A stretch of DNA of 64,000 bases from Chiridota heheva (taxonomy: Eukaryota > Echinodermata > Holothuroidea > Apodida > Chiridotidae). Positions 717 through 36,700 of the stretch are shown piece by piece. The stretch covers positions 337,501-401,500 of the forward strand of contig JAIGNY010002759.1 in the NCBI GenBank assembly GCA_020152595.1, read 5' to 3'. Each line of letters begins with the position of its first letter. Position 1 is the stretch's first letter. The translations under genes were made by a program, and so were the position numbers. The notes below the pieces were generated by a model, which worked only from the letters and a program-made list of their open reading frames with translations, was not told the origin of the DNA and searched no databases.

Positions 717-3700
717 GTTTGTTGTTAATTTGTTAGAATGATTTTGCGTATAATTTTGCATAAAAGATGACGCCATGCCTTTCAAAGTATCAACCAACAG
801 GAGTTGAGGCAATTCTTTATATTTTTCTTGGCTACAAGTATATCTGGATATTATTCAGGGTTGTATCCACAAAACTATTAAAGTTCATCTTTAAACATTC
901 TTTTACAGTATTACCATATCACATATCAATCAACTGTTTAAAAATTACATTCTCTGATTGCATGGATTTATTTAGAAGGTTTGAAAAATGTTATGTGTTT
1001 GTGTGGGTTTACCATTAAACCGTTGATAAGCCCCACGATTCCTACGAGAAATGCATCGATCGTGTACGAATTTAACCCTCTTTCACCTTTTCGCAGATTA
1101 ACGTGAAAAAGATTAACGATGCATTGAAGCAAAAGCTTGAAAACGCCTGGAAACAAGTTGCAAGGATTCAAAGGGTGGTACTTCTGTCGTTACCATGGAT
1201 ACGTGGAAGAAACTCATGACGTATGTTGCTCCGCGTAAGGGTCCCGATGAGCTTGCAATGATATGGGAGGTTCTGACGCCAAAGGATAAAAATAATATTG
1301 GTCAGTTATTTGCATAATATTTTCCTTTTTCAAAGCCATTCACTGCTTAATTAATAGACTTCCACTGCATGGACTGATGGAATGGGCCCGAACGAACAAG
1401 AGCTGAGTAAGTTTGAATCCTTTTTTTTGTCTGAAAGGGTTGGACTTTGAAGCACGTTGTATATGGGCCTTGCAAATTCGAAAGGCGTGGGGTGATTTTC
1501 ATCGTCATTACTGTCATCGTCGTTGTCATCATAATCATCTTTAGCACATTGGAATTCAACAATTCCTAAAATGTGGCCAATTAGACTGAAATTCTCAGCT
1601 GGCTTATTCCCAGTATATATCACAATCACCTTGGCAGCTAAAGTTGGATCATGGAAGCAAGAAGGTTTATTAGGTTAATCAGTTTATAGGAAATACAGAA
1701 AATTATAGGGAAAAAGTCCCAAGAAAGAACGGAAGAAACATCTTACGTCTGGTAGACAGACCCGTAGCACTTTCTCATAGAAGCACACTCACTTCAATAG
1801 AGGCACTTGGATAGATTCTCCAAATATCCTTGCCCCCTCCCCCTTACCCCTCCTGCCTTCTTCCGTGTTCCATGCTGGCTATGGACCTGCTGGAGGAAAA
1901 TATAACGTTCATTAGAAACTATCAAGATGCAGCGTTGAAGGTAAATCAAAATCTCGTCACAAGAAAATTGCTTGAAAAATCAGTTTATCTGACTGTCTGA
2001 TACATATTTGTAACGTAACAAACATGGCAGTCATTGATTGGCTTATCGGTACTTGTGTGTAAACATTTCGACAATCAAAAATGTTGAATTGTGTTGTATA
2101 TCTTCCGTTAACATAACTGCTCTTTAATCAGTTCTAGTATATCGTGCAACAATTGGATTGGTTATGGGTCGGATATGTAACTATTTAAACTTTTGTAATG
2201 TTTCTTTAACAGAAAAGTCGGACTTCATGAATTTAACGGATATTTTAAAGATTCCAGTCATCAATACAAGTCGACTCACTCCATTCATGCAAAAACATTT
2301 CCTAATATTTTCAACTGCAAAGTTAGCTTGTTTATGAGGAAATGTATCTTACACAGGTAATGTTATATATCGAATAAACTGATAAACAGGATTTATAAAA
2401 TAGTTGGTTAATGGAGGAGAGGAGAGAGGGGGGGGGGTATAAAGAAAAACATTGCTGATAGTGTCATTTGTTTATCTAAATTTCATCAAAATAGCGGTCT
2501 TTAAACTGTTCGGAGGCTAAATTTTACTAATTTAGAGCAAAAAAGGCCACATTACCTCAAAATCTGGCAAATGTACTGGACATTTTGGCAAAATGTCTGG
2601 ACATTTTTACGTTTTGCTGAACCAGTGGGGGTGGGAGTCGAGCAATCCGGCCAATCCATGTTTGTACCTATAAAGGCGTAACGACTGAAAATACTAATAA
2701 ATTTACAAGGTCTGCGTCAACATGGTCAAATTTCACAGGGCACTTTGGACAGCTGAACGGCAGTCAAGACAATTAAGATGATATCTTGCAATTAGCAAAG
2801 TGAACGTTTTAGATAAATGGTTCTAGTCTGATATTGTAATTATTATTGAAGAATTATACGATAGAATACACATAAATTCACAATTTTGAAATTACGATAT
2901 AAGATAACGAAACTATGCATATCCACTGATTTTATGCTGTCCTAGACTGCTTAATGACTTAGTGTTCCTGTACAGTTCAATCGCAGCAAATGAACAAAAC
3001 GGATGCATAACGCCTATAAACTCACGTGTTGCAGGTTCCTTAGATTAGGACCTCTTTCTTCCTGACTACGTATCACTGTCGTATCGGCGTCCGGACCCTC
3101 TGGCTCCCGGTACTTGCTGAAGTTGAAATCCCCAAGTTTTCTTGAATTTATCATTTTTTCTTTTCAGATATTTCCGACGTTTTTGGACGTTATGATTGTC
3201 GCTAATGCACTTCTTATTGGATTTCGATTCAAGTCTGCTTGAGCCATTCTTTCTTGCGTGGCCTAGAACTTGGCCCTTTCTCCAGTGTCAAAATTCCATA
3301 AAAATGAGAAAAAGTCTTATTTTTGCACACAATCCACTGTACCGTGGGAAATGCTTCTCATTATCTGAGGGACTTCTTCCAGTAGTTTTTAAAGGTGAAA
3401 GGACATTTGTTTTTATCTTGTGGATTCTAAAAAAAATGATAAAACTACAAAGAGAAAACAGGAAAGTAACACTCATATGTTCTTGATTTCTTCTTTTATT
3501 AGTACACACTTGTTAAAAGATACAGAGGAAAGTTCAAAACAATCTTATAGAAGGTATGATAATAAAGAAAAGATTCCATCTTGAGCGTAAGTTTACGCCA
3601 AACGTGAGAAAGAAGAAGCCCAACACAAGTTTTTGATCTGAATTGTAGAACATGGTCTCTGACACTGTATAGAAGGTATGTTCCTTTATACTTAGCGTAA

Positions 3701-33700: not shown

Positions 33701-36700
33701 TGTAAGATAGATCAAGTTTTTATTGGAACCTGTGATTGATTGAATCTTTTTACTGTACTTCTACAGTAGGGCGTAAATTTACGCTCTTTCAGATTTTGTA
33801 TGGCACAAATTTACGCTTTTCCAGGTGCAATATTGACATGTATAAAGCAGATACATACAAGTTTGATTTGGAAAATTCTGTGAAGGATTGCTTTTTGATA
33901 TGTTCTAAGGCGCAAATTTACGCACTTTCAGGTCTTGAGAGTTGAACATTTTCTTGGTATAAATTTACGCTGTTTCAGATTTTGCATGGCGCAAATTTAC
34001 GCTTTTTCAGGGTGCAATATTTACATGTATAGAGCAGGATACATTAAGTTTGAATTGGAATATTCTGTGAAGGATTGCTTGGTATTTTCTAGGGCGCAAA
34101 TTTACGCACTTTCAGGTCTTCAGATATGCTGTATGTAGCATGGGAGTAATAAAATGAAAGAAAATGAAACACTATTGGTTATTGTGTCTTTATCATTGTT
34201 ATGTGTAATAGTAACATCCTTTCTTTCAAATCCACAAGATAAATGATAGTGTCATTTTGAAAGGAACAGTCCCTTTACTTTTCAAAATTATGATAACAAG
34301 AAGTAAGTTATTGAATAATGAGAAGCATTACAGGCTACAATGGATTGTATGTATAAAAATACAACTTTTTCCCATTTTTGTGGAATTTTGACACTCGGAG
34401 AAAGGGCCAAGTTCTAGGCCACCCGTTATCATGAACTGAATTTAAATTTTGTAAAATCTTTGGAAATTACTTCTTATTGGCATTTAATTATATATGTTAA
34501 AGACATTTCACCAGGCCTTTAGAAGGATGCGGGTGATAACAACGAGGGAGGGAAAGGGCAAAGGCTATCGACCAAACTTAAAAAGATAGTAGAGGAACTA
34601 TTATTGATTCCGTACAATCAATTAATCATTTTCCTGTTGAATAAAAACGTCTATATAGCTTTAAGTGTGTGTCGTTTCCATATGACTGATTCACCAGCTG
34701 TCTTTGTATCTCTCTTCAATACAGATGAGAAGCAAGCCTACCTTTATGTCATCCTCGTCCTTCGAGTTTTACGTCTGGTCAGAATTTTAAATAACTTTAA
34801 AGAGTAAGTAAGAAGCTGATTTAAAGAAATAGGATCAGCGCAACAAATTTGTCACGGTGAGGTAGGGCTGGGATAGCCTAATGGGTATGCGTATCCTTTT
34901 CACCACCAGGTTGGTTCATTCCCATTTGGTTTGATAAATATTAACCAAATATTTAGACACATTGTGCAGTCAGGGAGAATCCTTGACTTTTAATGTAATA
35001 AAAAAATGCACCAAAACTTGGAGCTTCGTATTTATTAAGATGCATGGAGGCCGCCATTTTAACTAGTGATAACGTTATGTCAATGAGATTTTTACTAAAG
35101 GAACGGTAGTATTTGCGTAATGTAACGTATGATGCATGTACACGGTATCAGCGATGACTTATCCATAACAGAATCATATGTCGAGAGGCTGTTCATAAGG
35201 TCAACGACCTGTGAACGGAAGTCTTCTGTTATTTTATCGCGAAGTCCACGATGAAATTGAAGTCTGCAAAATCTCTATTATTTTAACGTTATCACTATAG
35301 TTAAAATGGCAGAATGGCGGCCTCCATGGATTTTAATGAATACAAAACTCCAAATTTTGGTGTATTTATTATTACACCAAAAGTCCAGGATTCTCTCCTG
35401 TCTAGTGTTGAGAGCTCTATGAGAAAGGAAGTATGGAGTTGTGATCAGAATAGGTACAGTTAATCTAAACTGATAACAGTTCTCTCACTGATAGCCATGA
35501 TAGTTTCCCACTTTAGCTGCAGTCACTTGGTTTAACTTTCCACATGGCACCCTCCCTTTCTGGTAAAAGTGAGGGAAGCGAAGCGGCGCATTGCAATAAA
35601 CTTTCCCTATGATGGCCTTTCCACTCCGCTATCATTATAATAAACACTGACCTTCAGCTTAATGTGAGCCACGTGCTTCAAAAGTTTGGGTCCGCCCTTT
35701 AACCTGTTGGTACATTGCGGCAGTTACCCCATTTGCCCCACACACATACCCACAGGAAAGTGTCGCCCGAGACAAACCGTGCCTCCTCATAGTAATTAAA
35801 CAGCTTAATGCTTAGCTATACGTTGCCTCGATCGTAATTGAGGAGCTATTTTCTGATTCCTCACGTTTTTGCCCATAATAGTTGGTTTATATCTTTAATC
35901 TCTAAATATTTCATTTTAATTCATGTGAAGGAGCAAGAAACGTTGTTCTGCTTTTAATTAAATTGTCTTCGGAACAACATCAAGTTTCATTATTAATACG
36001 AAAAACGCGATCTGCAATCACTGTTTGCGTATTTATTGAAATTACCCTTTATACAATACGTGCAAAGTTCAAATGACGCATAACTGATAAAACAACACTA
36101 CACTCTAAAAAAAGAATGGTCAAATTTGACCACAATGTGGTCAAATTTTGACCAAGTGCCGAGTAAACTATGCACCGACCCATATGTGGTCAAATTTGAC
36201 CATCCAAGCTTGGTCAAATCATTTGACCACGCCAACTTGGTCAAATTGACCAACTGGGTAGTAAATTCTGCACCGAACCATAAGTGGTCAAATTTGACCA
36301 TCCAAGGTTGGTCAAATCATTTGACCAACACAACTTGGTCAATCTTTTGACAACATTTAGTGGTCAAATTGACTCTAAAATAGTGAATTTGACTTAATAC
36401 TTGGTCAAATCTTATCAGAATAGAAACACCAACAACAAAGAAATTTCAGATTGAAGCTCACTTTATTTGTAACACTCTTTTCTCAGAATTAAAACAGAGG
36501 ATTGTATTATTAAACAAGAGATAATCGATGTTATTAAATAGATCAACAAATCATGCCAACAAAATATTCCTTTTGGGCTGAAACTCATAAAAATACACTG
36601 GATTTTCAACTTTGGAAATAAATACTAACTTTGGATACACCAAAATTATTACAGAGTTAGCAAACAATCATGCTAAAACCATCAAGGTGACTTTTAAATA

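Follow-up and report, generated by a model that had tools for sequence, protein, structure and literature searches.

A giant, apparently gene-less, foldback-like element family with a changed left end in the holothuroid Chiridota heheva

Long terminal inverted repeats (TIRs) containing tandem repeats are known from foldback transposons. Tetris, a foldback transposon of Drosophila virilis, has TIRs of up to 1.7 kb with ~220-bp tandem repeats, target duplications of 8–10 bp, a noncoding middle and a smaller related element with the same ends, and no autonomous partner was found for it; the sea urchin is also among the foldback hosts (PMC4079207). Galileo, a member of the P-element superfamily in Drosophila, has long, internally repetitive TIRs, chimeric copies, a P-type transposase and 7-bp duplications (PMC3573991). 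The DNA-binding domain of its transposase is known experimentally to have several binding sites within the tandem repeats of the long TIRs, and its authors suggested that a large number of such sites within long, repetitive ends could compensate for length (PMC3688188), since transposition declines with the distance between the ends (PMC6431247, PMC3688188). Here, we describe an element of ~31 kb in a stretch of 64,000 nucleotides of Chiridota heheva DNA (the window; contig JAIGNY010002759.1, positions 337,501 to 401,500), and we consider it likely that this element is one copy of a family of giant (~27–37 kb), non-autonomous, cut-and-paste DNA transposons of the foldback type with a chimeric left end.

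By structure the element is foldback-like, and it is set apart from Tetris and Galileo by its size, its 4-bp duplication and its exchanged end. It has long TIRs made of tandem repeats, as do the copies on contigs C2218, C568 and C2179, a variable middle without coding capacity in the frames scanned, and a 4-bp target duplication in most of the elements that could be read (6/10; giants 4/5). Sea urchin foldback elements are named TU. Like Tetris, it combines tandem-repeat TIRs with an apparently noncoding middle, a smaller relative sharing its ends and no partner that could be found; unlike Tetris, it has arms of 2.7–3.2 kb, a length of ~30 kb, a 4-bp duplication and an exchanged left end. Long repetitive TIRs and chimeric copies are shared with Galileo, in which binding sites in the arrays have been shown, and we propose such sites here by analogy; the differences are the 4-bp flanking repeats, the lack of a known transposase and the nature of the repeated site, a 14-bp palindrome (up to three mismatches) present ~33 times per arm. 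A preliminary description of the window held that known giant transposons lack such arms; long terminal arrays do occur in Galileo and Tetris, at smaller scale. The family described here combines giant size, an apparent lack of genes and a foldback-like structure with a change of end that is documented, and no description of such a family was found in the literature searched, which mostly did not extend to subscription papers, nor to Repbase.

For the P superfamily, the frames scanned contain no THAP domain, but the element appears to be non-autonomous; the duplication is 4 bp instead of the 7 bp of Galileo, and that of the P element is 8 bp. The 4-bp duplication also differs from the 8–10 bp (as in Tetris) of the Mutator superfamily, for which 9–11 bp is general. 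Helitrons and Helentrons make no target duplication and encode Rep/helicase, whereas here the 4-bp flanks match in six of ten elements and no helicase was found in the frames scanned. Polinton/Maverick elements have a 6-bp duplication, compared with 4 bp here, and the frames scanned contain no polB, retroviral-type integrase or capsid gene. Giant size and inverted repeats at the ends are shared with the giant animal DNA elements Polinton/Maverick and Teratorn (PMC6431247); unlike these, the core has no polymerase, integrase, capsid or herpesvirus-type gene in the frames scanned. Sola2 has 4-bp AT-rich duplications, AWWT in one group and ATAT, AAAT or ATTT in another (PMC3627910), and the 4-bp flanks are reminiscent of these; here TATT (two elements) and AACT (one) fall outside AWWT, and of the three cases of ATAT one lies inside TA repeats. 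Insertion into TA microsatellites, seen here for some insertions only, is shared with the Mutator-like MuTAnT, which is a plant family with a mudrA-like transposase (PMC4486113).

Recurrence and flanks of the unit

The outer termini of the unit match in inverted orientation, as the preliminary description had claimed (3258–3364 against inverted 34315–34422; 86% identity over 110 columns, E = 7e-28). Its borders of 3257 and 34424 enclose a real unit and need adjustment at both sides. The terminus of other copies reads AACGGG(G/C)TGGCC... and extends to AACGGGG, which places the right end at 34427; the left end is eroded and has lost its outermost bases. The parts of the element are as follows (window positions).

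3258–3578, plus strand: left outer end (TIR region), 86% identical to inverted 34315–34422, with the outermost AACGGGG bases gone
3580–5460, plus strand: palindrome array of the 116/117-bp type, ~15 units (TRF and palindrome positions)
5458–5533, minus strand: internal inverted end of the 116-type unit (3258–5533), followed by AAAT (5534–5537); matches the left end at 89% (71 columns) and the right end at 84% (70 columns)
5534–5975, minus strand: inner left remnant of a 329-type palindrome array (inverted matches to right-arm units)
5976–31205, no strand assigned: core, ~25 kb, or ~20 kb without three stretches missing from some copies; 95–97% identical to C568 and C2218
24114–25046, no strand assigned: nested insertion missing from C2218, C568 and C1468, with ends CAGTGGGTGTACC and TA on either side (copy comparison)
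27469–28538, no strand assigned: nested insertion missing from C568 and C1468 and kept in C2218, with ends TAGAGCTGTGACCG and an 8-bp duplication GTACTGAA, hAT-like (copy comparison)
31206–34128, plus strand: right palindrome array of the 329-bp type (TRF 31588–33639, 6.3 copies; palindromes 31271–34094)
34129–34427, minus strand: right outer end (TIR region), ending ...GGCCACCCGTT (genomic matches; boundary from other copies)

The 1.10-Gb assembly containing the window was searched for further copies; the window contig is labelled C2714. The terminus pattern (outermost 20 bases, up to two mismatches) has 80 genomic sites, compared with six for a reversed control. The best 40 of 86 candidates were scored in the right-end search (some of them left ends) and the best 40 of 91 in the left-end search (some of them right ends). 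Pairing the terminus matches listed gave both outer ends in the correct orientation on eight contigs, with seven elements of 27–37 kb and one of 57 kb (terminus searches):

C2714, 31.2 kb (window)
C2218, ~32.4 kb
C1860, 30.2 kb
C1540, 29.0 kb
C1039, 31.7 kb
C3123, 36.5 kb
C3232, 27.4 kb
C568, 57.1 kb

Seven of these eight elements show the same order of parts, from the left end through the internal junction, the left core and the right core to the right end; the exception is C3232, which is without the right-core piece. A left-core probe gave 24 genomic matches and a right-core probe 35; the latter comprise 23 within copies of the element, spread over 22 contigs, and 12 within related sequence on the contigs C2676 and C735. 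The two giants read through the core besides the window copy, C2218 and C568, are 97.2% (22,185 positions) and 95.2% (18,491 positions) identical to it. Differences between copies are mainly insertions or deletions: the core stretches missing from some copies are 17358–20452 (from C568 only), 24114–25046 and 27469–28538, and part of the surplus length of C568 is due to 24 kb of sequence that hardly matches the window. The terminus pattern had no match in the viral contigs searched.

The 31-kb unit is therefore real and is one copy of a repeated element, not a chance pairing. If it had been a chance composite, an element of the 116 type (3258–5533) would simply lie next to an unrelated element that contributes the right arm; the left unit does have its own complete pair of inverted ends and an array of another type, and the window copy is without a matching target duplication. 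However, 3257–5527 and the right arm do not always occur with separate partners, since the joint arrangement recurs in all eight complete copies; the spelling of the terminus at the internal junction occurs at 14 sites, and for each of them the contig also contains a left end (C568 holds a 15th site with another spelling); in C3232, C1039 and C3123, moreover, the 4-bp flanks of the two outer ends match. A chance composite is refuted by the recurring unit, and we regard it as scarcely credible.

The adjoining 4-bp AT-rich flanks match in six of the ten elements with both ends readable (permutation P = 0.002) and, among the giants alone, in four of five. The matching 4-mers are ATAT (C3232, C2179 and C1540), TATT (C1039 and C3123) and AACT (C1630). 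This test does not include the window copy, because its left end is eroded, C2218, whose right end has diverged, C568, whose left end coincides with the end of the contig, C3288, or elements of which a single end was read, and the 4-bp boundary was picked after the flanks had been inspected. With C1540 left out, the flanks match in five of nine elements (P = 0.004).

Spread of the copies by segmental duplication in place of transposition was also considered. The four unmatched flank pairs among the ten would fit such an origin, but the 30-bp flanks differ between copies while all starting at the same terminus (ends in TA repeats aside), and eight ends run straight into TA microsatellites. The combination of differing flanks and shared exact ends strongly disfavours segmental duplication, which is extremely improbable.

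Further sequences were noted in or near the copies. The core contains an irregular array of ~19–24-bp units (ATGTCCCACATGGCATCC; window 7751–8559) that is common to other copies, and a ~180-bp dispersed repeat (29979–30159) that also lies near or inside other copies (L021, L035 on C3382, and C568). A nested 2.7-kb insert in C2218 (561075–563750), at the equivalent of window 12664–12670, has a short duplication and, by eye, BED-finger/hAT-like open reading frames (ORFs). In a 3.1-kb element on C3382 (264330–267436), a 116-type left end runs directly into a 329-type right arm, with both the core and the internal junction missing; this element is likely to be an internal-deletion derivative of a giant.

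Palindrome arrays and the chimeric left end

The palindrome of the arrays has a 14-bp core, GCGTAAATTTACGC, with 67 sites (up to three mismatches) in the window, compared with a mean of 2.2 and a maximum of seven in 100 dinucleotide shuffles. The sites are confined to the two arms (3585–5915 and 31271–34094), with none elsewhere in the 64 kb. The 16-mer quoted in the preliminary description, GGCGTAAATTTACGCC, has no exact copy in the window and 15 copies with one mismatch; the repeat is real and the 14-bp core is its repeated part. The different higher-order units reported at the same time, 116 bp in the left arm and 329 bp in the right, agree with the TRF periods of ~117 and 329 bp. Counts of palindromes in the left arm, core and right arm are 33/0/34 in the window copy, 34/1/37 in C2218, 32/1/38 in C568 and 23/3/17 in C2179, and a 2.25-kb element on C3399 has 20. 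Once the palindromes are masked, no similarity was detected between the 116- and 329-type arrays by BLAST (E up to 0.001). In 12 older copies, identity is 88.0% (2482/2821) at palindrome positions and 84.7% (10179/12020) in spacers, as judged with columns defined on the window, which slightly favours the palindromes; palindrome identity exceeds spacer identity in ten of the 12. By analogy with Galileo, the palindromes are probably transposase binding arrays.

A third end lies inside the element, where 5458–5527, inverted, is 89% identical to the left end; 3258–5533 therefore resembles a complete small element with a 116/117-bp array, and the AAAT that follows it is a probable target duplication of its insertion. 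The arms had been described as mirror images. Palindromes are indeed present in both, but the left arm consists of two blocks, the 116-type unit and a short 329-type remnant that is inverted with respect to the right arm.

The state before this insertion can be read in older relatives, which are ~79–90% identical in the pieces aligned. Five of them (C2179, C3393, C3649, C3209 and C3377) have the 329-type array and TIR on the left side as well. In four (C3649, C2179, C3393 and C3209) the insertion point is uninterrupted, reading ...CCTGTTCTAT|AAATGTAAATG... or a close variant, which makes the capture of the new end directly readable; the fifth, C3377, is too diverged to align at this point and is likewise without the end of the 116-type unit. 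All six giant-type left arms that were read (those of the window, C2218 and C568 and, from elements that may be incomplete, C3381, C2144 and C1555) share the junction ...GGCCACCC(C/T)(G/A)TT|AAATGT(A/T)AATG.... The shared junction and the uninterrupted older relatives together point to a single insertion of a small element into the left arm, with later giants starting at the outer end of that element. The alternatives offered in the preliminary description, an undescribed giant element or a composite, were thus both right in part, as the 31-kb unit recurs and yet its left end is a secondary acquisition. A 116-type element standing alone between copies of a target duplication was not found; the sole candidate, a 936-bp pair of ends on C1555, carries the junction of the giants and was rejected as a giant-type arm. 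In the left arm of a 10.4-kb relative on C2179 lies a nested retroelement that by eye is CR1/L2-like (L025:1990–4700).

The chimeric left end would be explained most simply by the transposase having used the end of the inserted unit, and from the sequence comparisons we infer such a switch in end usage. The left end could alternatively have been changed by deletion or by ectopic recombination between the arms. The arms are repetitive, the chimeric copies of Galileo have been attributed to recombination (PMC3573991) and the C3382 element, in which a 116-type left end is joined directly to a 329-type array, indicates that arms can join internally; a single early recombination followed by normal transposition would also give the same picture. 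On the other hand, the Galileo chimeras are without matching target duplications, in contrast to the matching flanks in four of the five giants read here, and the junction lies exactly at the terminus of the inserted unit, as insertion predicts, while the C3382 element is without that junction. We therefore regard deletion or recombination as a rather unlikely, although serious, alternative to the switch in end usage.

A mechanism consistent with these observations is one in which a transposase made elsewhere would bind the TIRs together with the many palindrome copies in the flanking arrays, synapse the two ends and excise the whole unit. Insertion would occur at AT-rich sites, some of them TA microsatellites, with a 4-bp duplication. 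The ancestor would have had the same 329-type array in both arms until a smaller relative, which shared its ends but had a 116-type array, landed in its left arm; later transpositions would have paired the outer end of this insert with the old right end, producing a new chimeric left end that then spread. Both the action in trans and the cut-and-paste chemistry are inferred in this scheme.

More tentatively, it is possible that the arrays act as end-recognition amplifiers that offset the length penalty of cut-and-paste transposition. The palindrome might then be the only part read by the machinery, hence two arrays with unrelated spacers, and new giant lineages might arise by swapping a whole end for that of a nested small relative. 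If so, a gene-less segment of ~30 kb would still be mobile thanks to dozens of binding sites for one dimeric transposase. An apparently gene-less, multi-copy family of ~30 kb with ~70 palindromes provides a natural test of the binding-site offset idea at a far larger size.

Coding capacity and candidate transposases

The core of the window copy has 458 ORFs of at least 30 codons, 210 of which are covered by at least three other copies, and 185 of these 210 are broken in at least one copy. The Pfam scans (E up to 0.1, frames with X at stops) covered only the minus strand in the left half, both strands in the middle and only the plus strand in the right half of the core, and found no family. Two outward-pointing sets of exons, as proposed previously, are therefore unsupported; the absence of a polymerase, integrase or tyrosine recombinase noted at the same time holds in the core frames scanned, where there is no transposase either. 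The sensitivity of the scans to decayed genes is limited, as retroelement-like fragments recognized by eye at ~16.5–17.0 kb on the minus strand escaped them. The most gene-like frame, 30621–30818, is open in all three copies compared, with zero synonymous and ten nonsynonymous changes. It contains the following feature.

30669–30818, plus strand: exon-like relic, with related DNA in a tandem cluster on C2676 and no sign of constraint

The relic may be the Agenet/Tudor-like C-terminal part of a transposase-like protein. Its DNA has ten matches in the C2676 cluster (325505–337685), a satellite-like tandem array in which copies of a transposase-like gene with internal deletions repeat as units of ~1.3–1.5 kb. 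The units read (4.8 kb within 325800–330600) are related to a long transposase-like ORF on C3635 (ORF 3–3038 in 2037400–2042400), from which they differ by internal deletions. The weak matches of this ORF are to hAT-dimerisation (E = 0.005) and Agenet (E = 0.007), each below the curated cut-off, and it has no Pfam family above cut-off. It belongs to a very large family of transposase-like proteins in which a coiled coil at the N terminus and a 'DGTTKWGHKYGTYD' region are combined with Agenet-like repeats at the C terminus, with 1075 first-look candidates and 60 matches from the best 45 of these 1075; no relative was confirmed in the viral contigs searched with the protein. The C3635 family is a lead and not an identified partner.

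These data also bear on whether the family is a giant autonomous element, with its own spliced genes in two outward halves, of which the copies read are damaged. The relation of the C-terminal exon-like piece to the transposase-like family points in this direction, as do splice-like borders at ~26327–26399 and 30669, kept in the two and three copies compared, respectively; an intact copy might exist elsewhere, given that two other giants were read through the core. Against it stand the broken ORFs (185/210), the lack of synonymous changes beside ten nonsynonymous changes in the best right-hand frame, and the absence of any Pfam family in the frames scanned, from which a decayed or many-exon gene could escape. 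An autonomous giant is improbable in our view, and a non-autonomous family remains the preferred explanation.

An autonomous partner was sought through the exon relic, the C2676 cluster, the long C3635 ORF and a 1.9-kb middle stretch on C993, and none of these could be linked to the ends. On C993, 9.9 kb lie between related ends, ACAGGGTGGCCCAGAATTTG, that have no matching duplication beside them, and the stretch read (18500–20400) resembles by eye a remnant of an L1-type ORF1. ORFs of at least 90 codons beside older ends (nine stretches) resemble by eye retroelements, repeats or host genes.

Several observations weigh against a non-autonomous transposon family with palindromic binding arrays. 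Four of the ten flank pairs differ (C1860, C3399, C3382 and C993), those of C3399 and C3382 by one base (ATAT and ATGT in C3382). Two of the matches involve judgement, as C1630 has extra bases before the right terminus and C1540 lies in TA repeats; leaving out both gives four of eight (P = 0.03). The window copy, with its damaged left end, is without a matching duplication, because its outermost left bases are lost and its left flank is a coding exon, and the right end of C2218 has diverged. The surplus of palindrome over spacer identity is modest (+3.3 points), nil in C1600 and reversed in C3649. Finally, no transposase was linked to these ends, the transposase-like and terminus matches listed sharing no contig in an assembly with many short contigs, although a linked gene might have escaped these listings.

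Sequence around the element

Exons of a TPC3-like two-pore-channel gene flank the element at 597–3257 and 34726–42900 of the window. The exon at ~3170–3257 breaks off in mid-domain exactly at the eroded left end, no S2–S3 part was recognized ahead of the S4 exon at 34726, and two exons have apparent one-base frameshifts; the gene has here been deleted, is a pseudogene or has been hit by assembly errors. The left flank is single copy, and no second allele of it was found in the assembly. Rfam at gathering thresholds gave no match over the window. A ~100-bp, SINE-like dispersed repeat lies at 2957–3055 and accounts for 39 of the 40 matches listed (73–81% identity). Very long ATA and AT microsatellites of ~1.4 and 1.0 kb occupy 13813–15249 and 52934–53902. 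On C378, host-gene-like frames that by eye resemble hydroxylysine kinase (L037:647–5038) lie on the inner side of an older right end.

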